Source of the DNA: Rhodothermales bacterium
Lineage (GTDB): Bacteria > Bacteroidota > Rhodothermia > Rhodothermales > Bin80
Assembly (NCBI GenBank): GCA_958296045.1
Contig: CATQHT010000003.1
Location: 1,561,246-1,625,245 of the forward strand
Length of the DNA stretch: 64,000 bases
Direction: 5' to 3'
Positions 7,330 to 26,869 of the stretch are shown here, piece by piece. The notes beneath the pieces are model-generated. The model did no database searches. It saw only the letters and a list, made by a program, of their open reading frames with translations, and was not told where the DNA came from. Each line of letters starts with the position of its first letter. Position 1 is the first letter of the stretch. The position numbers and the translations under genes are program-made.

Positions 7330-8088
7330 ATGAGGCGGGTAGGCTACTCTGGCCTAGATGCCCATGTCCACGACAGCGTTCTGGCGGAGGTGGGGATGGA
7401 TGGCAAGTTGGTCAATAGCGATCGGTTCAGAACATGCAAGCCGTCAATAGTGGGTCGCATTGTCGCTGTAGCTGCGAAGAAGAAGCTCTGGGCTCTGGAG
7501 GAGTCAACATTGGCTGCGTGGCCAGCAGGCATGCGGCGTGGCTACGTGAATAAGGTGGTTGTCTGTGATCCACGCCACAGTGCGCTGATTGGCAGGAGCG
7601 CGAACAAGGACGACTTTGAGGATGCGTTCCGCTTGGCCCGTCTGTTGCGGATGGGTGAACTGCGGTCGATTACTCGGATCATTACCGCCGCGGCACCTTC
7701 AACGCTATCGCGCAGCCATTTATCAAGCTGCGCGATAGCCAACGCAACCTGAAGACTGCCATAAAGATGAAGTATCCAAAAGCAGGTATCTTGCGCGTGG
7801 ACAGGACAACCGTGTTCAGCGCGGCACACCGCAAGCGTTACTTGGAGCAGCTGCCGAACGCTCCCTCTCGTAAGATGGTATCGGATAGTTGTGGGTTGCC
7901 GGATTCAATGATCGCGGCGCGGCAAAAGGCACGAGACCAGATGATCCGACTGGGCAGATGGTATCTGGAGGTTCAGCAGTTCATGCAGATGTCCGATGTG
8001 GGACCAATCAGTGCTCGTATCTTCAATGTGTTCATCTAGATGCCCCACCGTTTTGCAACTAAGGGCTGGCGAAAATTTAACCTATCTG
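7330..8088 (+). pseudogene. IS110-family transposase remnant
   Basis: The N-terminal half (from MRRVGYSGLDAHVHD) shows the DEDD RuvC-like residues: D in GLDAH, E in WALEES, D in VVCDPR and the NKDDFEDA stretch. Near 7670-7690 the frame shifts; the next frame continues with YRRGTFNAIAQPFIKLRD and later the C-terminal GPISA-type element (MSDVGPISARIF). An in-frame TAG at 8037 then interrupts the region that should read IGDPHRFATK (here I-stop-MPHRFATK). Homology ends near 8090, where the tnpB unit begins, so the tnpB unit may have inserted into or deleted the 3' end. Inactive. Confidence 0.85.
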
Positions 8089-9369
8089 CCTAGTTGGCCG
8101 GTGGTCAATTTCGCCTGCACTCGTGGGTGCGCAACACCCCTGCGGATGCAGCTCACGAGCACGATGCTGTACACTCCCCAGACCCGCCACAGCATCCAAC
8201 AGCGGATGCCGCTCAGCGTCCGGGTGAGCAGACATGTGTTGCGCGTACGATAGGCTCGCCGCCCATCCATCAGGGCAAAGGCCCCGATACCACACGTTCA
8301 ACGCCGCGTTAACGTCGCGGCACTGGGTCTTTCCGCACGTGGCACAACGATGCTTCCTGTCAGCTAGGCGTAGCCTTTCCTCTGGCTTGTGATGGTAAGC
8401 GCTGCATCTCTGCGTTGTGTCGTTCGGCGGAACCAGCTCCACCTTGCCGCCAAGGAAAGTGGATTTGTACTTCAACAGCTGCACCAATTCGTACAGCCCT
8501 TGCGCGCGCATCGATCGGTTCAGCCCCGTCTTGCGGCTGCCACCGGCGCGTGTCATGCGTTCTACTTTCAGGTCTTCCAGAAACAGATTCGCGGATCGCT
8601 TAACGACGTCGGCAGCCACCTCGTGGCGGTACCCGAGGTTGCGTCTTACTACGCGCTCGGCCTCCTTGCGCCAAGCACCGAACCGCTTTCGGCGCAGACG
8701 TGTGTCTTTCTTCGTCTTAGCAGCCCGACGCCGCAAAGCGTCCCTGCGGGGCTCACTCTTTTTGATGGGCGCGTAGCTCTTTCCATCCGCCAGCGTCGCG
8801 ATGGCCTTGCAGCCAAGGTCCACGGCCATCGGTGTGTCTGCGCAGCTGTTCTCTGGCGCCTCGGGGCGCTCGTACACGACTTGTATCGTGTATTCGGTAC
8901 CCAGCGACGACCGCACGATGCGCACGAACTTGCAGCCGTGGCGCTTGATCAACCCGCGCCGATCGGTGAAACGGACGTACCCGACGCCCTTGATGCAAAC
9001 GCGATAGTCTTGGCGCCTGACGCGTTCGGGCTTCCGTAGCAGCCTGAAGCTCTTCACCAAGTCGCCTCTGAAACGCGGCGGGCGCGCATTATGCTTATCG
9101 AAAAAGCGCTTGTAACCCTCCGTCACGCCCCTGATCACAGGACGCTGCTCAGCCACGCCGAACTCGAGATTGCGCTCATCGGCTCTGCGGGCGGCCGTCC
9201 AGAGCTTCGTCAACGTGAAATAGCTCGGATGCTTCTCTGCTACCTTGTGTGCGTTGCGGCATTGTTCGACCGCCCAGTTGCAGACCCACTTAGCGTTAAC
9301 GAACATCCGCCGCAGGCGGGCATAGCCCGCCTTCTTTGTATAGCAGCGGTATGTCTGGCTCAGTAGCAA
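8077..9369 (-). CDS. tnpB: TnpB (IS605 OrfB-type RNA-guided nuclease), full-length copy
   Basis: A 430-residue protein. The RuvC triad is present: D184 (AVDLGCK), E265 (LEDLKV) and D352 (CRDVNAAL). The C-terminal zinc finger is altered: the first pair reads RCSAYHH, so the second Cys (position 325) has become Tyr by TGC-to-TAC, while the second pair CATC is kept. The sister copy at 1-1208 still encodes that Cys but is frameshifted. The tail after NVWYRG is about 70 residues longer than usual and reads into the presumed right-end/reRNA region. No tnpA is present. Whether the protein is active with three zinc ligands is uncertain. Confidence 0.85.
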   Translation of the reverse strand: MLLSQTYRCYTKKAGYARLRRMFVNAKWVCNWAVEQCRNAHKVAEKHPSYFTLTKLWTAARRADERNLEFGVAEQRPVIRGVTEGYKRFFDKHNARPPRFRGDLVKSFRLLRKPERVRRQDYRVCIKGVGYVRFTDRRGLIKRHGCKFVRIVRSSLGTEYTIQVVYERPEAPENSCADTPMAVDLGCKAIATLADGKSYAPIKKSEPRRDALRRRAAKTKKDTRLRRKRFGAWRKEAERVVRRNLGYRHEVAADVVKRSANLFLEDLKVERMTRAGGSRKTGLNRSMRAQGLYELVQLLKYKSTFLGGKVELVPPNDTTQRCSAYHHKPEERLRLADRKHRCATCGKTQCRDVNAALNVWYRGLCPDGWAASLSYAQHMSAHPDAERHPLLDAVAGLGSVQHRARELHPQGCCAPTSAGEIDHRPTRQIG

Positions 9370-15492: not shown

Positions 15493-15939
15493 ATGGCAAG
15501 CCCCCCGATGCCTTCTGCTGGACTCTGGCGTGGTTTGGCTGTTCTTGCACTCGCGCTGTTCTTGACCGGCTGCACCGAGTCTGCAATCGACGCCACATGC
15601 CAGGACGGACTTAGTGGACAGTTTTTCATTCCAGCCTTGTTGCTGGCCGCTTTGTTGACCACGGCCCTTTGGATGCTGGGCTATTTTGCCTTCGCCCGAC
15701 GCAGGATGGCGAATTGGAACCTAGCCGGAAAGGAAAATAGAGCACCGCGTTCATGGGCGTTTGTCGTACTTGGAAGGGTGGTCCCAATCCTGACGATGCT
15801 TGGTTACGTCATCGTGTTCTTATTGGCGGATTGCCCAGCCTCCAACAAGATTTGGTTAGCGGCTGGACTCACGCTAGGATACGCGGTGGGGTTGGTTGCG
15901 TGTATGGTGATAGTCCGGCTTACCAAGCGCGGTTCGTAA
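15493..15939 (+). CDS. membrane lipoprotein-like protein with four hydrophobic segments
   Basis: A 148-residue protein. An N-terminal signal with lipobox-like LALFLTGC (about residues 20-27) is followed by three further hydrophobic segments (about 45-67, 89-112 and 118-141) separated by a basic loop (FARRRMANWNLAGKENRAPR). No family recognised. It ends only 20 bp before the 1660-residue tubulin/actin-like gene and on the same strand, so it is probably the first gene of that operon and would supply a membrane anchor. The start could also be 15 bp downstream (second Met). Confidence 0.6.
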   Translation: MASPPMPSAGLWRGLAVLALALFLTGCTESAIDATCQDGLSGQFFIPALLLAALLTTALWMLGYFAFARRRMANWNLAGKENRAPRSWAFVVLGRVVPILTMLGYVIVFLLADCPASNKIWLAAGLTLGYAVGLVACMVIVRLTKRGS

Positions 15940-15959
15940 GATAAGCTCAGACAGACGAC

Positions 15960-18900
15960 ATGACCAGACTGGTTGCATGCGGTGGAACGGGCGCTCACGT
16001 TGCGCTGGCGTTGGTACGCCTGCACATTCTTGGGGACGCCCTTGGCTTCTTTGACCGCAAGAAGCACAAGTTTCGTTTCCCAGACCTGTACCTGGTAGAT
16101 CAGGACAGCGGCGACGGTTCGGAGGGCAAGCGGACGGCATGGCAAGAGGTGCGTCAGCTCATGGACCAGCATCCAGGCCGAGTAGATTGGGAACAGGGCG
16201 GTCGCCACGGTGGGATGCCTACCATCACGACGATTAGCCCACTGCCAGTCGGCAAGAATAAGCGCTGGTTTGATAAGCCCAACAGCTCCCTCAAGGTCCG
16301 TTTTGGCGATTCTCCTCTTCTTAACTTGCTTGCGTCTCGATCGCAGCAGGAGATTGATTTCTCACTAGGCATGATGGGCTCCCCTGCCGTGGGGTCACTC
16401 TTGTTCAAACTCAAGGAATTTGACCAAGCTGGCGACGGCACGAACCATGACGAGGAGTACGAGAAGGCCATTCACGAATGCAGCTCCGACAGGGTAGTGG
16501 TCGTGGGATCGGCTGTAGGTGGAACCGGCGCATCGGTTGCTCCCACGCTGGCCGAACTCTGTGCAAGAGGGGTGCGCGATAGTGTCGACGAAGCGGACGG
16601 TGCAGCTGTGATGGCAGTTATGGTGCACAAGTGGTTCACTTTTCATCGGCGAGACCAGGATGGCAAATATCAGGCCAGTGCACGGGACCGCAATGCCCGC
16701 ATGAAAGAGAATGCCGCCAGTGGCTTGGCGTGCTACGGACAAGCCTTGGTACAGAAGGCGGCCACTGTGCTGGTTGGCGTACCGAAGAAGGGCTTGGTAA
16801 GGCGAGTCTATACCTCCGATAATCAGCAGCCCATCCAAGACTCCTACGCCCATGTAGTGGGCGCCCTCGCCGCCACTCTTCATCTTCTGAAGAAAGAGCC
16901 ATTTTCTCCAGGTTTATACGGCGTATCGGCGTCGGATCCCACTAGGTTGACGGGAGACCTATCGGTAGGGGTTGAAGAAGGTACCATGCAGGATTTGGTA
17001 GATAAGGCAACCGTCCTGCTCCACATCCTGCGAGTATTTATCCGCGATCTTACCCGGACCAATTCGTCGTCTTTGAAGAATTCGTCGTCTTTGAAGAACT
17101 GGTTTTTCTATGCTGGCCGCGACGCTCCTACGTCGAGCCTCTTTCGTAGCGTGTCGGACACAACAGGTGGCAATCAGGCTCAGGTTGCTCGGATACTCCA
17201 AAAAGTCGTTAACGACTACAGCTCCTGCCTAGCATGGCTTCAGAATGCTGACTGGGGGGTCAAGGCCAGTGTGGTCGACAAGCGTGGTGTAGAAAAAGAG
17301 TTTACAACTCAGTCAAAGTTGGCCGCGCGTATCAAGAAAGTCAAATGGACTGAAAGTAGCGGCAATAATGAACCCGAAGAGGCAGCTCTGGCACTCTATG
17401 GCTGGACTGCGCGTTGGGTCGCTGACGTATGGAAAGAACGGAAAGAACGATTGGTTAAGCCGCAAGTACAGACCGGGCACGCTGAAGGTCACCCCGGCGG
17501 CTACTGGCCATCGCAGGGGAAGACAGGTCTAGCGCCGAGTTGGAAAAAGCCAGGTATGATGACTGCGGTCGCGGAAGAGAAACAGAAGGGTACGCTGGCG
17601 ACATTCTACGAGGCGAAAGATATATCGCAGAATGGCTGGCCTGATCCTGTAGCGACCGCAGAACACTTCAATTACTGCATTGAGCATAAGAGTGACATTC
17701 CTTACGCTTCTCGGCAGCTTAATATCCTCCTGATCGGTTTGGTAAACGGAGCATTATCCATCGAACGCATGGCACGCTCCGGCTCGCCGCCCAGCGTCTC
17801 ACTGGAAGGACTGATACATGATCTTAAAATCCCCTACCCCGATCTTGCATCTCATCGCATCGTGTATCGTCCACGGAAGAAACCGCCGCGTAGTATTGGA
17901 TTCACTTCACCCAAGACGTTGGTCTGCCCTTCCCCGACGGTGAGTGATGATGATTGGCAAGAACTGTGGGAGGACCTAAATGACATCCCACCCAAGCCTC
18001 CGTCTAGCTGGAAAGATCCCTGGAATGATCCAAACGACCTATCCAGCCTTGTTAGGGACGCCACAGAAGTAATTATGGGTTGGATCGTTAGGCTGAAGAA
18101 AGACAGGCCTCGAGCGGTACCCGATTGGACGTCAGCACTTGCAGGTAAGAATGAAGATGCAGGGCCGTTTCGTGCATCTATTCAAACATACAGTGTGCTA
18201 TGGGGTGAAGACACAGCGCGCATTACATTGCCTATTAATGCTAACAGCCCTCGATTGATACCCAAGACAAGCGAAGAGGCCCTTGGAGAGCATAAAGCCC
18301 GGGAGGTGGAGTGTGCGACATTCTTGGAGGATAACAAGCATTGGTCGCCTCTTGATGGATTCACAGTTATTGAAGACTACTACTTACCAAGCAAGAAAGA
18401 CACTGTAAATCTGATATGGAGAAACCACCTTGAGGCCCTCCAGAAGGCAAGTAAGCTGTTTTCATGGACGCCAGAGTGCGTGGATGGTCAGGACAACCTC
18501 TTGATCCAGCTGGACGGGAAAAGCTCGGTGTTGGTGTTGGTTAAGAATCTTCGGGTGATTGATGAGGAGGTTTTATGCATACGTGAGTGCTATCCTTTGC
18601 ATCAGCGTCCAATCTCCAGATCACGACGAAAAGCAGGTGAATGGGTGTTTCCTGACCTCCCGATTCTTCCCGATTATCTGGGACTTATCCGCACCCGAGA
18701 CGGCGACAGCCTACTAGAGCTCCTGCTGGATGGGGTAACCGATACGAATGTACTAGACATTAACCACGGACCAGAACACAATCGCAAAGGGCGAAGGGTT
18801 TCATGGTCGGTAAGGTTTAAAGGATGCGAAAAGCCAATCCAAGTCCCCGTGGGGATTCGCAAACTAGAGGCAGATCCCGTTCGTGCCCATTGGATGGTCT

Positions 18901-20942
18901 GGCCGAACTTCCGTGTAGCGGGTAACCAAGACCCGTGGCGTGCCTATTACCTATATGGCCGCACGAGCCATGAGCCGATAGAACTCCGTCCAATGATTGT
19001 CGATGGACCTGGAAACCGCGTATCGGAACCAAGACCGGGTGTGTCTATGGCGTGCAGGATGAGGGCCATTGCACACGACAATGGTAGCCATGTTGGGGGT
19101 CCGCCCGTTGCTGTTTGTGCCTACGATACTGCACTAAAAGAGTATGTCGGTGTGTATCTGGTGCGTCTGAAGGCATATGACCGGGCTAAGGCTAACACGT
19201 GGAAGGTGGCCGTAGACTTTGGTACTTCGCATACCGTGGCCGCCATGAAGGTGGGCGAGGAAGACGTCGAGCATGCAGAGCTGGCCGCAGAATTGGCAAC
19301 TCCTACTGGCGGGCAATGGAACGGGATGAGTGTTCACATAAGCGAAGACTGGCAAGAGGGGAATCCGGCAGGGCAAGATGCAGGATACGAGCTATGGCGT
19401 CCAAACTATGTAGCTAAATACAGCAAGGGCTCCAAATCGTTGCTGCCATCTGAACTGTGGTCGGTCAGGCCGCTAGATAAGGTTGCTCCAACAGATATCG
19501 ACAACTGGGAACCTACGACACATTATGCCATTCCTGTCATGGATCTTCGACGCTCAGACGTTGCACAGCATATTTTGTCTGGGCTGAAGTGGGGTGCGAT
19601 TCAGCAGATGAAATTCCGGGACAAGGCGAGTGTCCTTCGCGGCAAATACTTGAATGCTGCTCTGGAGTTGTTCATAGCAGATCTGGTTTGCAAGCGGAGT
19701 TTGCTGCCCGAAAAACTCCTGATGACCTTTACTTATCCACTTCGGGCCATCGATGTAGGAGAATATAAACGCTTTGAAGAAACCATTAGTAAGGTCCTCC
19801 GCATTAGCAGAGGGGACCTGGGATGTCATTTCGAGCTCGCCGAAAACGTAGGCCTGTTTAGCGAGTCGCATGCTGCTAAGGGTGGTAGCGGGAGAAACCT
19901 GGAAGTCGTCATCGTTGGCGACCTCGGCGGCGGGACGTTTGACATGTTGATCTCAACGTCAGAAGTACCCTCTTTTGAGAGCCCCCGATTTCGTGAAGTA
20001 GCAGACAGCGCAAAGTTAGGTGGCAACCTGCTTCTGGACATCCTCGCGAAGAATCCCAGCCGATACCTTCCCAAAGATAGTAAGGGCTGGAGCGATGATC
20101 CAGAAAAATGCGCAACTCAGCTCCGCACTTGGATGCGTACCATTGGTGCCAACTCTCTTTTCGATCCCAATTCACTCAACGTGGAGGAAGAGGGGCTAAG
20201 ATTGAGTGGATTTGGCAAAAAGGATGCGGGGAATCTGGCGAGGCTGCAGATTGAGCGATATTTCCGCATGATCACCGACTATATGGCGAAGAGCTTGGTG
20301 GCTTACGTGGGTAAGGAGGTATGGCCGAAGCTAAGCGAAAGGGAGCGCAGCAAAGTCCGAATCCTGGTGCAGCTGCGCGGCAACGGATGGCGCCTTTGGT
20401 ACCAGACTACAGATTACGCCTCAATTCAGGCCACAATGCGTGGCTGGATAAAGGAGCGCGCCGAAGAGCTTTGGAGCCAAGTCGGGATGAAGGGCTCAGT
20501 CAAATCCATGTGGAAGTCGCCAACGCCGCCGAAATCCAGGCCAAAGCTGGATGCGATCTGCGAAGCCGTAGGTAAGAGCTACGGAAAGGATAAGGCTACG
20601 AAGCACAGCTACAAATTCCCGCTTTCCAACTTGGAGCTCATCCCAAGCGGTGATCGCAACGTGACTGTCAAGTGGTACGATAGCCTGCCCTATAAGCCTC
20701 CAGAAGACGTAGAGAATGCTGTTTTTCAGTTCGGACTCGTAGACCCGAAGATTGCACTTGGACAGCCTGGTACGAAAAGCCCAACGGTAAGTGAGTTGGA
20801 TGAGGCGTCCATGCGCAAAGTCAATGAGGGCATCCAAAGCGTCGTCCGAGAGGGTGGCACCATATCAGCTCCGGTGGCAGCGCTGATTTGGGAGAATGTT
20901 TTTGAGTCCGAGACTTTTAGGGATTTCAAGGATGTATCTTAA
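15960..20942 (+). CDS. giant two-NTPase protein: tubulin/FtsZ-like N-terminus, actin/Hsp70-like C-terminus
   Basis: 1660 residues. It begins TRLVACGGTGAHVALALVRL, a Rossmann GGTG loop as in tubulin-like proteins, and at about 179-201 has VVVVGSAVGGTGASVAPTLA, matching the GGGTGSG signature position of tubulin/FtsZ. Residues about 210-960 show no domain I recognise; they include a 6-residue duplication (NSSSLK twice). At 970-1000 there is a Trp-rich WPNFRVAG segment. From about 1081 it has an actin/Hsp70 ATPase core: phosphate-1 VAVDFGTSHTVAA, phosphate-2 VIVGDLGGGTFDMLI (about 1316-1330), connect-2-like DSAKLGGNLLLDIL, and ILVQLRGNGWRL in the adenosine position. Likely a cytoplasmic NTP-driven sensor or scaffold. 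The actin-like part is clear; the tubulin-like part is inferred from two motifs. GC content is visibly lower than in flanking genes, which suggests transfer. Confidence 0.75.
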   Translation: MTRLVACGGTGAHVALALVRLHILGDALGFFDRKKHKFRFPDLYLVDQDSGDGSEGKRTAWQEVRQLMDQHPGRVDWEQGGRHGGMPTITTISPLPVGKNKRWFDKPNSSLKVRFGDSPLLNLLASRSQQEIDFSLGMMGSPAVGSLLFKLKEFDQAGDGTNHDEEYEKAIHECSSDRVVVVGSAVGGTGASVAPTLAELCARGVRDSVDEADGAAVMAVMVHKWFTFHRRDQDGKYQASARDRNARMKENAASGLACYGQALVQKAATVLVGVPKKGLVRRVYTSDNQQPIQDSYAHVVGALAATLHLLKKEPFSPGLYGVSASDPTRLTGDLSVGVEEGTMQDLVDKATVLLHILRVFIRDLTRTNSSSLKNSSSLKNWFFYAGRDAPTSSLFRSVSDTTGGNQAQVARILQKVVNDYSSCLAWLQNADWGVKASVVDKRGVEKEFTTQSKLAARIKKVKWTESSGNNEPEEAALALYGWTARWVADVWKERKERLVKPQVQTGHAEGHPGGYWPSQGKTGLAPSWKKPGMMTAVAEEKQKGTLATFYEAKDISQNGWPDPVATAEHFNYCIEHKSDIPYASRQLNILLIGLVNGALSIERMARSGSPPSVSLEGLIHDLKIPYPDLASHRIVYRPRKKPPRSIGFTSPKTLVCPSPTVSDDDWQELWEDLNDIPPKPPSSWKDPWNDPNDLSSLVRDATEVIMGWIVRLKKDRPRAVPDWTSALAGKNEDAGPFRASIQTYSVLWGEDTARITLPINANSPRLIPKTSEEALGEHKAREVECATFLEDNKHWSPLDGFTVIEDYYLPSKKDTVNLIWRNHLEALQKASKLFSWTPECVDGQDNLLIQLDGKSSVLVLVKNLRVIDEEVLCIRECYPLHQRPISRSRRKAGEWVFPDLPILPDYLGLIRTRDGDSLLELLLDGVTDTNVLDINHGPEHNRKGRRVSWSVRFKGCEKPIQVPVGIRKLEADPVRAHWMVWPNFRVAGNQDPWRAYYLYGRTSHEPIELRPMIVDGPGNRVSEPRPGVSMACRMRAIAHDNGSHVGGPPVAVCAYDTALKEYVGVYLVRLKAYDRAKANTWKVAVDFGTSHTVAAMKVGEEDVEHAELAAELATPTGGQWNGMSVHISEDWQEGNPAGQDAGYELWRPNYVAKYSKGSKSLLPSELWSVRPLDKVAPTDIDNWEPTTHYAIPVMDLRRSDVAQHILSGLKWGAIQQMKFRDKASVLRGKYLNAALELFIADLVCKRSLLPEKLLMTFTYPLRAIDVGEYKRFEETISKVLRISRGDLGCHFELAENVGLFSESHAAKGGSGRNLEVVIVGDLGGGTFDMLISTSEVPSFESPRFREVADSAKLGGNLLLDILAKNPSRYLPKDSKGWSDDPEKCATQLRTWMRTIGANSLFDPNSLNVEEEGLRLSGFGKKDAGNLARLQIERYFRMITDYMAKSLVAYVGKEVWPKLSERERSKVRILVQLRGNGWRLWYQTTDYASIQATMRGWIKERAEELWSQVGMKGSVKSMWKSPTPPKSRPKLDAICEAVGKSYGKDKATKHSYKFPLSNLELIPSGDRNVTVKWYDSLPYKPPEDVENAVFQFGLVDPKIALGQPGTKSPTVSELDEASMRKVNEGIQSVVREGGTISAPVAALIWENVFESETFRDFKDVS
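17061..17096 (+). repeat. 18-bp perfect tandem duplication inside the giant gene
   Basis: AATTCGTCGTCTTTGAAG occurs twice back to back, giving NSSSLK twice in the protein. It keeps the frame and looks like a recent slippage event in a linker. Confidence 0.85.
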
Positions 20943-21028
20943 CGAGACCCTGTTCACAGCTGCTGGTGTCATGCCCACGCAAAGCCGCTTACGATCGTAG
21001 CCCCTGCCCTATTTGGTATATGGTACGC

Positions 21029-21352
21029 ATGAACATACCCGGAACTATGGATAGCTCACTGAGGCCTGGTCGCGCCCAGCGGCATGACCAGGCTGACCAC
21101 AAAGGTGGCAACGCAATGACTGTTGCGTTGCGCTGGCTTATTGGGCACACCCTCTCGGTTGCGCGATGGGCAGTAAGGCGTCTGGAGGTCGCTGAAGGTA
21201 GGCTGCGTGGCCGACCTCACAAATTGGCACCGCTTCTCCTCCATGATGCACTGGAGCTTGCCAAGGCCCTACCACGATTGACGTGGCCACCATCACCTTC
21301 ACTGCCCCGTGATCCGCTCCAGAACGGAGACTATGGAGATACCGAAACGTGA
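21029..21352 (+). CDS. small basic helical protein in the accessory operon, unknown
   Basis: 107 residues from ATG 21029 (MNIPGTMDSSLRPGR); an in-frame GTG at 20966 is a longer option. It has a mildly hydrophobic amphipathic stretch (MTVALRWLIGHTLSVARWAV) followed by basic helices, and a disordered Pro-rich tail. It fills the only gap between the giant gene and the vWA lipoprotein on the same strand. No family recognised; it may be a real small component or a chance frame. Confidence 0.4.
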   Translation: MNIPGTMDSSLRPGRAQRHDQADHKGGNAMTVALRWLIGHTLSVARWAVRRLEVAEGRLRGRPHKLAPLLLHDALELAKALPRLTWPPSPSLPRDPLQNGDYGDTET

Positions 21353-21389
21353 AGCCTATGAACTCCTACGATCTTGTCGCTAATTCGTC

Positions 21390-22766
21390 ATGAAAAAGAC
21401 ACTCTTCATTATTCTCATTGCCCTTGTCGTAGGTGTGGGCTTGCCTGTCGCCTGTACGAGTGACCGCAGTGAGAACGATCTCGGATCGGCCGGTGGTCCC
21501 ATTGGTCAGCAGGGGCTGCGCCAGGACGTAGATGTTACGCCGGTCTGGGACGATGCCGCAGCCGATGTAGTCCAGATAGCCGATTCGCTGCCTAGGGTAT
21601 TCAGGCTGCTGTGGGATCGCTCCATCCCGATGGGCGGATACATAGATCCTCACCCAGACAGCATTTCCCTACCTCATAACATTCAGGAGTTCCTCAAGAG
21701 TGTGCGCTTGGCCTCCGACTTTGGCCACGCTGATATTTCCTTAGAATGCAGCGGGATCTCTGACCAGATCGTGGCCTACGATTGTGCCACCAAGTTTGGG
21801 CGCGAGTTTTTTGACGGAGGAAACTCCCGTATGGACTTGGCCATCAGCCAGGTCACATCGGACATTTTGGACGGCACCGTTGTGGGAGCGGCACTCATCA
21901 CGGACCTCATGGCTACCACGGAGTTTGCCGTGGGAGCCACATCCCTCTTGCCTTACTTACGAGACGCAAGCCTTCGGGCCCATTTCAATAACGGTAGTAT
22001 TCACGTGGCACTGGTGGGCATCAAAGCAGCTTATTGGGGCATACGCGGCACAGGTTGTCGAACGGAGCCTCCAGGATCTCCAGGGTGCTGGTTCAATGAG
22101 GGTACCGAGAGTTACCAGCCACTCGATAGTTTGATTCAGAGGCCGCTGTACGTACTCTTAGTAGGCCGAAGCATTAAGGCTCCAGATCGGAGAGTAAATC
22201 CTGTCGTGAAGATGGCGCAAGCGCTTCAGGAGGCGATTGCGAAAATAGATCTGCATGCGGAGACGTTGTTGGATCTTTTCACGCATGGGACAATTGCGTC
22301 AACTGATAGGTTTTTCTGGTTACCGATGAAGCAAGAAGGATTTCAGCCTGTCGATCTCTTAGGGAATGGCTACGACTGCAAGCAGGATGGCACGTTTGAT
22401 TTATCCGGTACCTTTGCGGACTCAAGCATAGTTGTTATGGACACCAGGGTAGATTCAAGAGATAGCTTGTATGCGGGCGCAAGTGAGGTCAGGTCAGTGG
22501 CTAGAGACAGTGTAAAGTTCTCGCTCTACTGCGAGCATGTTCGCAGCAATGAGGACAAAATCTGCTCCAAGGCTGACGATGGCCGCGCCACTAATGTAAC
22601 CGTTCGGCTCCGCCATCAAGCTGCCGATCAGAGCCGCCTCGATTCATGGTCTTCTGTGGAGCATGATCCAGCGTCTACTTTGTATTTGGACGATTTCCTT
22701 GACGGCTTAAGACCCAGCTATTACGAGGCGGCCATCACGCCTTTTCCGCCTATTGCTTGCCGTTAG
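21390..22766 (+). CDS. vWA-domain lipoprotein
   Basis: 458 residues. A lipoprotein signal (MKKTLFIILIALVVGVGLPVAC) predicts export and membrane anchoring. The first half reads as a von Willebrand A domain: FRLLWDRSIPMGGYI gives a MIDAS-like D76-x-S78-x-P-M81 (canonical DxSxS, with Pro for the last Ser), GGNSRMDLAI supplies the second metal ligand (S146), and VGAALITDLMATTE the third (T171-D172). Then come strands HVALVGIKAAYWG and RPLYVLLVG. The second half has several Cys residues and no known domain. Such proteins bind partners through a metal-dependent face. It follows the giant gene on the same strand; an IS3 element begins 18 bp after its stop. Confidence 0.72.
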   Translation: MKKTLFIILIALVVGVGLPVACTSDRSENDLGSAGGPIGQQGLRQDVDVTPVWDDAAADVVQIADSLPRVFRLLWDRSIPMGGYIDPHPDSISLPHNIQEFLKSVRLASDFGHADISLECSGISDQIVAYDCATKFGREFFDGGNSRMDLAISQVTSDILDGTVVGAALITDLMATTEFAVGATSLLPYLRDASLRAHFNNGSIHVALVGIKAAYWGIRGTGCRTEPPGSPGCWFNEGTESYQPLDSLIQRPLYVLLVGRSIKAPDRRVNPVVKMAQALQEAIAKIDLHAETLLDLFTHGTIASTDRFFWLPMKQEGFQPVDLLGNGYDCKQDGTFDLSGTFADSSIVVMDTRVDSRDSLYAGASEVRSVARDSVKFSLYCEHVRSNEDKICSKADDGRATNVTVRLRHQAADQSRLDSWSSVEHDPASTLYLDDFLDGLRPSYYEAAITPFPPIACR

Positions 22767-22783
22767 ATAGATCCAAGTCGCTC

Positions 22784-23795
22784 CCCCTAAAACTGGACAG
22801 TACCCTAAGATGAAGTTGGGCTGGCTGAAAACAACGGTGACGTTGCCCATAATAGAGAAGCGCTCCATGGTGGGTCATGCTGAGGGGAGCATCCAACGCC
22901 AGTGTCAGCTGCTTAGAATTCCGCGATCCACCTGGTACTACAGGCCTACAGGGGAGTCGGATTATGAGCAGCAGTTGATGCGCGTCATGGACGAGGCGTA
23001 CACAAACAATCCTGCTTGCGGTGTTCGCCGGATAACGCAAGGCCTGCGGCGCCGTGTGTACGTGATGAATCCGAAACGTGTTCATCGGCTGATGCGTCTG
23101 ATGGGATTGCAAACCAGCCACCCCAAGCGCGGATATCGGCCAGATTCGGGGCATTATCGGCGTCCGAACCTGATAAAGCGGCTGCCCATCGTGCAGGCGG
23201 ACCAGGCTTGGTGCGTTGATACCACGCACATTCGGATGGATCGTGACTGCGGATTTCTGGTGACCGCGATGGGTTGCTTTAGCCAATACGTACTTTCATG
23301 GACGCTATCCAATACGCAAAAAGCTGCGAAGTCTGCTCCGGTTTGCGAGGACGCGTTGGCCATTAGGCAGCCGGAGATCTTTCACTCGGATCACAGGGCG
23401 CAGTACAGCAGCGATGCGATGATAGCTTTGTCCATGGACGCGGGCGTACGGATTTCCATGTGCGGGCACGGCCGTTGCTACGACGACATTCTAAACGAGC
23501 GCCTGTGGCGCAGCGTGAAGGATGAGGAGGTGTATCTGAATGAGTACGGCTCGCTGCACGACGCTGGGCAGCGGCTGCACGCGTGCTTCGCGCGCTACCA
23601 CCACTGCCGTCCGCGCCATACATTGCAATACCGAACACCTGCAGAGGCCTACTTCAGCTCCGATGAGGTCAATGAACCGGTCACCGAAGCCGGCCCGATG
23701 ACTGAATCCCCAGGAGGACCTTCTCCCCCACATAGCCCTAGACAAGTGGCCATGCACCATCTTAACTACGTGGTGACACTGTCCAATGAATGGGG
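22784..23795 (+). mobile_element. decayed IS3-family element between two island genes
   Basis: Ends are imperfect inverted repeats: left CCCCTAAAACTGGACAGTA and, read on the other strand at 23795, CCCCATTCATTGGACAGTG. It is only about 1.0 kb: orfA is missing and orfB begins 25 bp from the left end, so an internal deletion has removed the first ORF. No clear target duplication. It lies wholly between the vWA and ZorA-like genes. Confidence 0.75.
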
Positions 23796-23817
23796 TACAC
23801 CTTACTCAATGGGCTGA
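22810..23817 (+). pseudogene. IS3-family OrfB transposase, orfA deleted
   Basis: 335 residues with the rve-type DDE core: D in WCVDTTHIRM, D in IFHSDHRAQYSS (usual HSDQGSQY, so altered) and E in LNERLWRSVKDEEVY. An HTH_21-like part (CQLLRIPRSTWYY) lies near the N-terminus. It begins with sequence normally at the end of OrfA (KLGWLK), so the programmed OrfAB fusion cannot be made. Its frame reads through the right inverted repeat and stops 3 bp before the next gene. Probably inactive. Confidence 0.85.
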
Positions 23818-23819
23818 TT

Positions 23820-26195
23820 ATGGAGACCGTATTGAGCGCGTTGACGTACGTTATTCTTGGCGCTGGTTTTCTGACTATATTATATTTTCAGCGCCGATAC
23901 TGGCGCCAAGCGAAAGAGGCTGGGCGAAGCCTTGAGAGTGAGGGCTTTGAGGAAGGTGAGATCGCACGTGTGCTGGACAGCGTTCGCACGTTGGCTAGGA
24001 ATAGGCAGCCTTTTGACTGGGCCGCGACATTCGATAGGTTCGATCGGATAACGGAACATCCGCTCGATGAAATCAGACGCAGCGCTAATGCCGCCTTGGT
24101 CACTGGCGTAGGTGGAACGATGGGATTGTTCATCATTGACCTTTTCTTTCATTTTGTCTTCTTCCCCAGTGGCGAGAAACTGCTTGTCGATGATGAACTA
24201 CGACCAAGTGTGTTAATAGGAGCACTCTTGGCGCTGCTGTCGAGTCTGATCGGCGTACTCTTCCACCTTAACATAGTTTTACGTTGGTTGAGTCGGGCAC
24301 AGACAAGTGCCGCCAACAAGGTTAAGGAGTTGATAGCCAGGGCGCACCAGCTGATTCTAACGACTGCAGAAGAGCTGGCCGCTGAGGAGGAGCAGCCGCC
24401 TATCGATCTTGATGGCACTTTTGCCGAATCAATTGCGCGGTATCCAGAGTTGCTGCAGCGTGCAGACGCAAGCATTCAGTCTTTGAGAAAGGAGGTAGCT
24501 CGGCAGGTAGATCTTCTTGGAGCTGCCTCAGGTGTAGTGGCGCAAGAACTGAAGGGTATCGCAGGCGTGACAAAAGAACTCGCTGCGCAAAAGGCCTCCT
24601 TGCAGAAGGCGCTGGAGACGCAGCAGGAACAACAGGAAGCGCTTGGTACGCGCTACGACAGCCTAATTGACCTTGTATCTTCTGCGCTGATTACCCACCA
24701 GCAGACTGCTACTGCAGCCCAAGAGGTTGTAAACGTCGTGGCGGTCCTTAAGGCTCTTCCCGAGCGCTTGGCCGATACCATCAATGCGGCTACGACCGCC
24801 TGGGAGGACCAGCAGAAGCGTGGCCACGACGTGTTTGCGAACGCGGTCGGGGGTTACCTCGACGACCACAGGGCGATCCTTGCGGGAATCAAAGCCCAAT
24901 TTGAAGAAGAGCAAGAACGGGGAGAAAGGGTTCAGCAAGCCCAGGCCAAGGTCCAGCAGGAAATCGTGGACAAGTACGAGAGGCTCACCGTTCTGGTAGA
25001 ATCGTTCCCGAAGGCCTTGCGCGTTTCATTAGAGCAGATGTCAGATATCTTCGGCCAAGAAGCACGTAACCACGTTAAAGATCTGGAGCGAGCGCTCAAC
25101 GATGGTCTCGGCAACTTGGACGAATCCTTCAAAGCGAACCTTCAAAGGTTGAGCCAAGACATTGGAGCAGGGGCTGCCAGCATTATTGAGCAGACTTTGG
25201 GCAAACTTTCCCAGGAGATCCAGCAGGGCGTGCTGACGCCTCTGGAAAAGACGGGGCGCCATCTTGACGACTTGGTAGCCTCTGCGCTCAGTACCTACCA
25301 GCAGACAGTTGATTCGGCGCAAAACGTAGCGAACGCGACAGCGGTCCTTCAGACGCTGCCCGAGCGCCTGACCGATACCATCAATGTGGCCACCACTACT
25401 TGGGAGAACCAGCAGAAGCGCGGCCACGACGTTTTTGCGAATGCGGTCGGGGGCTACCTTGACGAACATAGGACGATCCTGGAGGGAATCAAAGCCCAAG
25501 TTGAAAAAGAGCTAGAACGGGGAGCAACGGCTCAGCAATCACAGGCCAATGTTCAGCAGGAAATCATGGACAAGTACGAGAGGCTTACCTTGCTGGTGGA
25601 GTCCCTTCCGAAGACCTTGCGCGAGTCATTAGATCAGATGTCACACATCTTTGGCCGAGAAGGACGCAACTACGTAGCAAAGCTGGAACAAGCGCTCAAT
25701 GATGGTCTCAGCAACTTGGACGATACCTTCAGCACGAACCTGAGGACATTGAGCCTGAACATTGGAGAAGAGGCTGTTCGCGTCATCGAGCAGACTCTGG
25801 GTAAACTTACCGAGGAAATGAAGCAAGGCGTGCTGATTCCACTAGAAGAGATGGGACGCCACTTAGATGCGGCCACCGAGGCCATGCCTGCTGGTGCAGA
25901 GAGGTTCGGGCAGGCGATGCTGGCATCCGTTACTGTATTGGAAGAGCTGCCCAAGGCACTGGCTGACGCGTCCAAACGGGTCAACAGTGTAGCTAAGGAC
26001 GTCACTGGAATAGCTGAGGACCTAAATGTCAGTATCGAGGGGGCTATTAAAGACGCGTGGGAGCCGGTCACCGGCAAGATGCTGGAATTTGCTGAGCAGG
26101 CAAAGGATACTCATAAGGAACTGGAGGAATTAATAGACGGCCTTGTTAAATTCATCCAAGAACTCGTGGACAGAATAGGGAGTCACGTAAAATGA
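23820..26195 (+). CDS. MotA/ZorA-like membrane protein with long coiled-coil tail
   Basis: 791 residues from ATG 23820 (METVLSALTYVILGAG). An earlier ATG at 23790 lies in the IS3 end and is not native. Three hydrophobic segments (about 5-22, 98-122, 138-162), including ANAALVTGVGGTMGLFIIDLFF and LIGALLALLSSLIGVLFHLN, match the paired pore helices of MotA/TolQ/ExbB-type proton channels. Residues 180-790 are almost entirely helical and charged, as in the long cytoplasmic tail of ZorA. The tail contains an exact 200-residue internal duplication. The stop overlaps the start of the next gene by 4 bp (ATGA), typical of coupled MotAB/ZorAB pairs. The channel assignment is inferred from topology, motifs and partner gene. 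Confidence 0.65.
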   Translation: METVLSALTYVILGAGFLTILYFQRRYWRQAKEAGRSLESEGFEEGEIARVLDSVRTLARNRQPFDWAATFDRFDRITEHPLDEIRRSANAALVTGVGGTMGLFIIDLFFHFVFFPSGEKLLVDDELRPSVLIGALLALLSSLIGVLFHLNIVLRWLSRAQTSAANKVKELIARAHQLILTTAEELAAEEEQPPIDLDGTFAESIARYPELLQRADASIQSLRKEVARQVDLLGAASGVVAQELKGIAGVTKELAAQKASLQKALETQQEQQEALGTRYDSLIDLVSSALITHQQTATAAQEVVNVVAVLKALPERLADTINAATTAWEDQQKRGHDVFANAVGGYLDDHRAILAGIKAQFEEEQERGERVQQAQAKVQQEIVDKYERLTVLVESFPKALRVSLEQMSDIFGQEARNHVKDLERALNDGLGNLDESFKANLQRLSQDIGAGAASIIEQTLGKLSQEIQQGVLTPLEKTGRHLDDLVASALSTYQQTVDSAQNVANATAVLQTLPERLTDTINVATTTWENQQKRGHDVFANAVGGYLDEHRTILEGIKAQVEKELERGATAQQSQANVQQEIMDKYERLTLLVESLPKTLRESLDQMSHIFGREGRNYVAKLEQALNDGLSNLDDTFSTNLRTLSLNIGEEAVRVIEQTLGKLTEEMKQGVLIPLEEMGRHLDAATEAMPAGAERFGQAMLASVTVLEELPKALADASKRVNSVAKDVTGIAEDLNVSIEGAIKDAWEPVTGKMLEFAEQAKDTHKELEELIDGLVKFIQELVDRIGSHVK
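24661..25860 (+). repeat. 600-bp tandem duplication encoding the coiled-coil tail
   Basis: 24661-25260 and 25261-25860 align without gaps at a fixed 600-bp offset, with roughly 80 percent base identity by eye. Identical blocks include KRGHDVFANAVGGYLD, KYERLT, LERALNDGL/LEQALNDGL and IIEQTLGKL/VIEQTLGKL. Divergence shows that the duplication is not recent, yet the frame and heptad phase are preserved, so the tail has been lengthened by exactly 200 residues. Confidence 0.92.
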
Positions 26196-26869
26196 GGCGA
26201 CACCGAACTCAGGTCACCGTATGGCCCGCGGTAGCAGACCTGATGACCGTCATTGCTGTGGTAAGCGTCATCGCAGGGCTGGCCTTTTGCTCTCCTAAAT
26301 CGGCATCAGACTCGCTGCAGGAGAAGAGAGACTCACTGCAGGAGGAAAGAGACTCACTGCAGGAGGAGAAAGACTCGCTGCAGGCAGAAAACGAGTCCCT
26401 GGCTGCTAGGCTAGGCTCGCTAAGGGTAGAAGTGGATTCACTATCCCGCGACGGAGAGGGTATACCTGCATGCCTTGGCAGGGACTCAAGGGATGACCTC
26501 ATTCCGCTGGTTTCTATCACGGTACGCAATGATGATACCTACCTTGTACAGCGCACGTGGTGCCCTACCCGTAATAACATGTTCGCAGCACTCAACGCGG
26601 AAATCAACGAGATTGATGGTGAGGTATTGAACCGTAACCAATTGCGCCGGTTTGCCGAGAAGGCTAGCAATACCGCCGCCGCTCAGTCTTCTAATTGTGG
26701 CTTCTGGGCACATCTGCGAAACGGTGGCGTTAGCATCAGCGAATTGCGCAACAGGTACCACGACGACTTCGCAAGATTCTTCAGCGGCCTAGTCAATCCG
26801 AGCGTGCTATATGCCAACCGTACTACTTCCCCTAGTCCACAACTATGTGGGGCACGGTCTGGTAATTGA
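26192..26869 (+). CDS. MotB/ZorB-like single-span protein, no OmpA signature
   Basis: 225 residues, starting inside the stop of the previous gene (ATGA overlap). After a short basic cytoplasmic end comes one helix, VWPAVADLMTVIAVVSVIAGLAF, in the MotB/ZorB style, with an Asp at the helix start (ADLMT) where MotB has its proton-carrying residue. A heptad linker (DSLQEKR, DSLQEER, DSLQEEK, DSLQAEN) follows, then a 140-residue periplasmic domain with three Cys (ACLG, TWCP, NCGF) that lacks the OmpA peptidoglycan-binding motif. It probably forms the stator/plug partner of the ZorA-like protein and senses something in the periplasm; that role is inference. Confidence 0.62.
   Translation: MRRHRTQVTVWPAVADLMTVIAVVSVIAGLAFCSPKSASDSLQEKRDSLQEERDSLQEEKDSLQAENESLAARLGSLRVEVDSLSRDGEGIPACLGRDSRDDLIPLVSITVRNDDTYLVQRTWCPTRNNMFAALNAEINEIDGEVLNRNQLRRFAEKASNTAAAQSSNCGFWAHLRNGGVSISELRNRYHDDFARFFSGLVNPSVLYANRTTSPSPQLCGARSGN
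26309..26392 (+). repeat. four 21-bp tandem repeats (heptad repeats)
   Basis: Units of 21 bp, each encoding D-S-L-Q-x-x-x, run from 26309 to 26392 inside the ZorB-like gene, with only a few differences between units. Copy number changes would alter the coiled-coil linker by whole heptads without losing frame. Confidence 0.9.

Follow-up and report, generated by a model that had tools for sequence, protein, structure and literature searches.

The window analysed here, a stretch of 64,000 nucleotides from a Rhodothermales bacterium with a genome of 4.78 Mb, contains at positions 15493 to 26869 a cassette of six genes, called A to F below, that probably specifies a new kind of cell-envelope machine. 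Its central product, the 1660-residue protein B, appears to combine a tubulin-type and an Hsp70/actin-type NTPase in a single polypeptide; it is encoded together with a lipoprotein carrying a predicted von Willebrand factor A (vWA) domain (D), a channel pair of the ZorA/ZorB kind (E and F) and two small proteins (A and C). We put at about even the chances of the following reading: the six genes make up one accessory module building an envelope-spanning machine, i.e. an ion-driven sensor or motor that governs a tubulin-actin filament or switch, with anti-phage defence as its most likely role.

The proteins encoded by the cassette

The open reading frames (ORFs) listed in a preliminary description, made from the letters of the sequence, were all found where it had placed them and all on the + strand. 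As it also noted, the cassette is less GC-rich than its surroundings (52-56% within versus ~60% outside). The gap of 20 bases between A and B and the overlap of 4 bases between E and F fit an operon.

The tubulin/actin-like nature of B (15960..20942, + strand) had been guessed by eye and is now backed by both profiles and folds. The AlphaFold2 (AF2) model covers residues 1-1075, with a pLDDT of ~80 over residues 1-600 and lower values beyond. When residues 1-551 were compared with Aquifex (A. aeolicus) FtsZ, the VIA Z-score was 16.8 (241 residues aligned, root-mean-square deviation of 3.9); the top 50 VIA rows for the model were all members of the tubulin superfamily (FtsZ, CetZ, TubZ or tubulins), and FtsZ was also ranked first by Foldseek, with modest E-values. 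Because Foldseek gave E-values of 1e-3 or above for both models (B and D), the fold assignments of these two proteins rest on the VIA Z-scores, the uniformity of the match lists and the motifs. In the window protein the T1 loop reads ACGGTGAH and the T4 loop VGGTGAS; the corresponding patterns, CGG[TS]GAH and VGGTG[AS], are kept in 10 out of 10 divergent B members. A candidate T7 loop, placed by sequence only, reads GLYxxxAxD and its first Asp is variable. The model thus supports a tubulin/FtsZ fold, comprising the GTPase and a second domain, for residues 1-570. A comparison with the viral structure library yielded weak phage tubulin matches only.

Residues 570-1075 form a mixed middle region, modelled at low confidence. 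For residues 1075-1660, all 60 PDB profile matches listed were to Hsp70/DnaK (E ~0.002), and two motifs, DFGTSH and DLGGGTxD (DLGGGTFD in the window), are conserved in the C-terminal third of the B members. An actin-like homologue from a distant relative (L059:5052-8336) matches MreB_Mbl (6.9e-6). These profile matches and motifs support the assignment of the C-terminal part as a putative Hsp70/actin-type ATPase. Profile comparison linked the N-terminal part of B to free-standing tubulins (probability 98%), two of which exceed the PF13809 curated cut-off of 27 bits, and the C-terminal part to the actin-like proteins of relatives (probability 99% and 94%), so that the tubulin-actin fusion is supported at both ends. 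B itself scores 12.4 bits against PF13809 (E 0.09), below the cut-off. Two other candidates were discarded: an origin of the N-terminal GGTG loop in the ThiF/E1 family (NCBIfam PRTRC_ThiF, E 0.36) is ruled out by the tubulin fold, and the retinoblastoma pocket, the best PDB profile match for the whole of B (E 0.01), was put down to chance similarity between helices.

E and F are laid out like an ion channel pair of the MotA/TolQ/ZorA-MotB/ZorB kind, as had been proposed from their sequences. The ZorA/TolQ-like subunit E (791 aa, 23820..26195, + strand; start set by homology at 23820, not 23790) extends into the cytoplasm with a helical tail of great length, and the second of its three hydrophobic segments contains GxGGTMG. 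In the alignment of transmembrane (TM) motifs its GxxGT is of the MotA/TolQ/ExbB type, PADLOC reports a ZorA3 match, and its profile matches the E proteins of systems that bear OmpA domains. The ZorB-like protein F (225 aa, 26192..26869, + strand) has a single TM segment with an invariant WPAxxDLMT, in which Asp16 is the same in every member (n=9), followed by a coiled coil and a short C-terminal region. The latter, which takes the place of OmpA, matches no family and contains two invariant cysteines. Rather than turning out to be unrelated membrane proteins, E and F align with relatives that bear OmpA-containing ZorB and MotA_ExbB domains. PDB matches of the pair to coiled coils and to viral F proteins were dismissed as low-complexity matches.

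For D (458 aa, 21390..22766, + strand), AF2 gave a model with a pTM of 0.76. The top 50 VIA rows were all vWA/integrin-I-like domains, with Z-scores up to 7.2, and the match covers model residues 65 to about 285 or 442. The MIDAS-like site (metal ion-dependent adhesion site) seen earlier proved to be a variant: the canonical DxSxS is absent, and the alignments show instead a conserved DxSxP[MIV]xG, which reads DxSxPMxG at residues 76-83 in the window, with TDL at 171-173. Although the Z-scores are middling, the uniformity of the matches and the conservation of these motifs support the earlier vWA assignment, and D is by computation a membrane-anchored vWA domain.

The two remaining genes are small. 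A (148 aa, 15493..15939, + strand) encodes a membrane protein that, by hydropathy, has three hydrophobic segments beyond a lipobox-like N-terminus (LTGC); in relatives its homologues (E 1e-6 to 1e-68) immediately precede B. C (20966..21352, + strand) encodes 128 aa from a GTG, or 78 aa if the ATG at 21116 is the start, as it may be. Its position is kept across loci and its sequence scarcely; in the Acidobacteriota and Gemmatimonadota copies it is replaced by proteins of 280-360 aa with an N-terminal hydrophobic segment.

Distribution, joint inheritance and genomic position

Profiles built from the first loci were run on six-frame translations, and B was searched in the 145 other genomes of the class, then across species-representative genomes. 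B homologues were found in 7 of the 145, all from the window's family (Rhodothermales/Bacteroidota metagenome-assembled genomes, MAGs), where B is carried by 8 of the 15 genomes sampled. Outside the class, they occur in Acidobacteriota (Vicinamibacteria, Thermoanaerobaculia, Holophagales) and Gemmatimonadota, plus a contig-end fragment in a MAG labelled Gammaproteobacteria, which may be mis-binned. Twenty viral stretches matched a pattern in the B search; none is a relative.

The preliminary description had suggested looking for the same neighbours in unrelated genomes, and they are there: ten complete loci have A-B-D-E-F one after the other, in this order and on the same strand (the window, L013, L014, L015, L016, L017, L023, L029, L030 and L031), six from one Rhodothermales family, three from Acidobacteriota and one from Gemmatimonadota, i.e. 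from at least three phyla. This rules out a chance clustering of the genes. Other copies are cut by contig ends (L018, L019, L025 with L054, L032/L052, and L033). In L019, L030 and L032, B is spread over two or three frames, and is therefore either decayed or mis-assembled. F accompanies B in six of the seven unrelated genomes that have B, the seventh having no more of B than a 4-kb fragment at a contig end. D and B occur together in 8 of the 146 genomes of the class and in 2 of the 347 Acidobacteriota genomes, and no strong D match without B was found in either set. Pairwise gene distances correlate across seven loci (Mantel r 0.77-0.93, p 0.0006 to 0.003), which shows that the genes were inherited jointly; species relatedness contributes to this correlation.

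The cassette changes place. The genes that flank it in the window (cupin, LolA-like and FtsX-like) are kept in five relatives, as is an amidohydrolase gene in four of them within the stretch read. From the cupin to the LolA-like gene the distance is 12.4 kb in the window, where the cassette fills it, versus 0.32 kb in L098 and 1.9-2.1 kb in the cassette-free L096, L097, L099 and L100. Two of the five flank-sharing genomes (G041 and G107) carry the cassette elsewhere, and the flanks differ in all loci except the closest pair.

Defence-related genes are found near some copies. Around L026/L028 they are a C5 methylase, an AIPR/AbiU-like protein, a ShosA-like DprA and a ZorD/DpdE-like SNF2 helicase; L022 has an N6/N4 methylase nearby, L031 has HSDR_N, and Uma2 lies downstream of L023 and L029. 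The SNF2 helicase (DUF3670; L026:1489-4587 and L028:43-3141) is matched about equally by the ZorD and DpdE models and is ~5 kb away from the cassette, with a short partner gene as its neighbour. At L026:20194-23541, an AIPR abortive-infection protein and an HTH/M78 protein stand beside the cassette.

Relation to known systems and possible functions

More distant relatives share the gene order but are built differently. The tubulin and actin-like genes are separate in L057 and fused in L058, L060 being cut; in these three loci F has an OmpA domain, and its best match to ZorB in PADLOC ranges from 2.7e-9 to 4.8e-15. L059 encodes a PF13809 tubulin, an MreB-like protein, a vWA-like lipoprotein, and MotA_ExbB and OmpA/ZorB proteins. 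What the window shares with such loci, besides the lipoprotein and channel proteins, is a tubulin joined to an actin-like part, which there takes the form of a tubulin gene followed by that of an MreB/FtsA-like protein of ~1,100 aa; the differences are that the two genes are separate there and that ZorB, where found, keeps its OmpA domain. The split tubulin/MreB-like system of L059 (G675:C78:22000-41000) adjoins a protein of 1710 aa with RHS repeats. Pairs of tubulin and FtsA-like genes are also found on cyanobacterial plasmids (RefSeq 'tubulin-like doman-containing protein', WP_013325769.1): on one mobilizable plasmid (L080, NC_014503.1, 39732-44646) the tubulin-like gene is followed by an FtsA-like gene of 1118 aa. 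PF13809 matches in three Acidobacteriota genomes (G348, G376 and G389) were set aside as ordinary FtsZ from the cell-division cluster.

The window system, with its fused B and its OmpA-less F, is a branch of this wider tubulin/actin/vWA/ZorAB family, and the family overlaps gene sets already predicted in 2010 by Makarova and Koonin, in which vWA and OmpA genes surround divergent FtsZ-like proteins (FtsZl1) and for which a role in membrane remodelling and vesicle formation was proposed (PMC2875224). The link is made by the free tubulins, since they exceed the PF13809 cut-off; a direct profile match of B to canonical FtsZl1 proteins was not significant. Both kinds of system have a divergent tubulin beside a vWA protein and a patchy spread, and some FtsZl1 genomes have an OmpA-domain protein. 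They differ in that the window tubulin is fused to an Hsp70/actin ATPase, whereas FtsZl1 has an extended coiled coil and a helical C-terminal domain, and in that the window set has no P-loop GTPase or kinase. The text of the FtsZl1 paper mentions neither MotA/TolQ nor an actin-like partner (PMC2875224). To call the cassette undescribed, as was first done, is therefore too strong without qualification; what the open-access literature did not yield is a natural fusion of the tubulin and actin NTPase families, or a gene set pairing these families with an ion-driven motor.

With the flagellar, Tol and Ton-type motors (MotAB, TolQR, ExbBD) the pair shares the GxxGT motif and three TM segments in E, as TolQ and ExbB have three, and the TM aspartate in F. 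It is set apart from them by the very long E tail and by a cassette that includes no partner of the flagellar, Tol or Ton kind. Zorya, which requires the ion channel, the ZorA tail and peptidoglycan binding by ZorB, acts via nucleases (PMC11890865). It is similar in its channel pair, long helical tail, TM Asp and accessory distribution, but the window has a vWA lipoprotein and a tubulin-actin protein in place of nucleases. PADLOC confirmed that ZorC, ZorD and ZorE are absent from the window cassette, as had been stated, and none is seen in the gene content of the relative cassettes; this and the absent OmpA domain rule out membership of Zorya.

Beyond the proteins forming one module, each step of the following scheme is one that we infer. 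E and F would assemble as an ion-driven E5F2 motor whose E tail, like that of ZorA, would extend into the cytoplasm. Sensing or holding the envelope would fall to F, D and A, and the Cys-containing domain of F, together with the vWA domain, would stand in for the peptidoglycan-binding OmpA domain. On a disturbance of the envelope, such as phage DNA injection, ion flow would turn the E tail, which would recruit and activate B. B would then polymerise or switch at the disturbed site, using GTP at its tubulin end and ATP at its actin end, and seal, remodel or isolate the membrane or the entering DNA. Defence would thus work like Zorya, with a cytoskeletal effector rather than a nuclease. The more specific form of the idea, an immune machine in which an inner-membrane ion-driven rotary motor directly controls a tubulin-actin hybrid polypeptide assembling at envelope breaches, is put forward tentatively, as less likely than not.

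A defence function is favoured because of the patchy distribution, the mobile position and the defence neighbours of some relatives. Several observations pull the other way. GTP hydrolysis by B is uncertain, since the catalytic T7 loop of FtsZ (NxDxxD) appears unconserved. The PADLOC ZorA3 match of E (1.8e-11) comes mainly from the coiled tail. The peptidoglycan-binding OmpA domain that Zorya needs (PMC11890865) was not detected in any of nine F members with families listed up to E 10, and the cassette encodes no nuclease. In the window no defence gene flanks it, Uma2 or methylase neighbours are commonplace in accessory DNA, and the fused B was found in no virus or plasmid. The membrane-remodelling role predicted for the relatives could, moreover, be housekeeping. 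A rather unlikely alternative is a remodelling or vesicle apparatus with no part in defence, the envelope being deformed by the motor together with the vWA lipoprotein while the tubulin-actin protein provides the scaffold: the closest published gene sets (FtsZl1 with vWA and OmpA) were given a predicted role of this kind (PMC2875224), distant relatives encode a PF13809 tubulin, an MreB/FtsA-like protein, a vWA-like lipoprotein and an OmpA protein, and membranes are a common site of action for tubulin and actin superfamily proteins. Such an apparatus fits poorly with the very patchy distribution, the mobile position and the several neighbourhoods rich in defence genes, and the role proposed in 2010 is itself a mere prediction.

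Two other explanations were considered. The resemblance of E and F to ZorA and ZorB, and the helicase that L026 and L028 have ~5 kb from their cassettes, could point to a Zorya of undescribed type, with ZorAB serving a new effector, B, that acts directly on phage DNA. We find this improbable: B matches neither nucleases nor helicases, none of the cassettes encodes ZorC, ZorD, ZorE or another nuclease, F is devoid of OmpA, and the helicase is near one closely related pair of loci only, with other genes between and a nearly equal DpdE match. Least credible, indeed very improbable, is a competition, secretion or surface module in which the ion motor would drive export or display via D and A; the RHS-repeat protein next to the tubulin gene in L059 speaks for it, whereas no effector, RHS or secretion gene was found in any fused-type cassette examined. 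If the assignment made here for the cassette holds, motor control of the ZorAB type would widen from nucleases to filaments or switches. It would also offer a possible role for the FtsZ-like/vWA/OmpA systems of the 2010 prediction, which are uncharacterised, and their function would become directly testable with the six-gene cassette.

The IS3-family insertion and other transposon-like genes

Contrary to the preliminary description, which saw no other cargo among the genes, an insertion sequence (IS) interrupts the cassette between D and E. The ORF at 22810..23817 (+ strand), which does not belong to the system, matches Pfam HTH_21, rve and rve_3 (E 1e-13 to 1e-8) and is the transposase ORFB, without ORFA, of an IS3-family element. 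It is single-copy in the genome and was seen in no cassette of a relative; there, D and E directly adjoin or overlap. In the window, the insertion may cut E-F off from the upstream promoter of the operon. Elsewhere in the window, two similar minus-strand ORFs, at 198-1208 and 8077-9369, start LLLSQTYRCYTK and, judged by eye, probably encode transposon proteins of the IS200/IS605 type.

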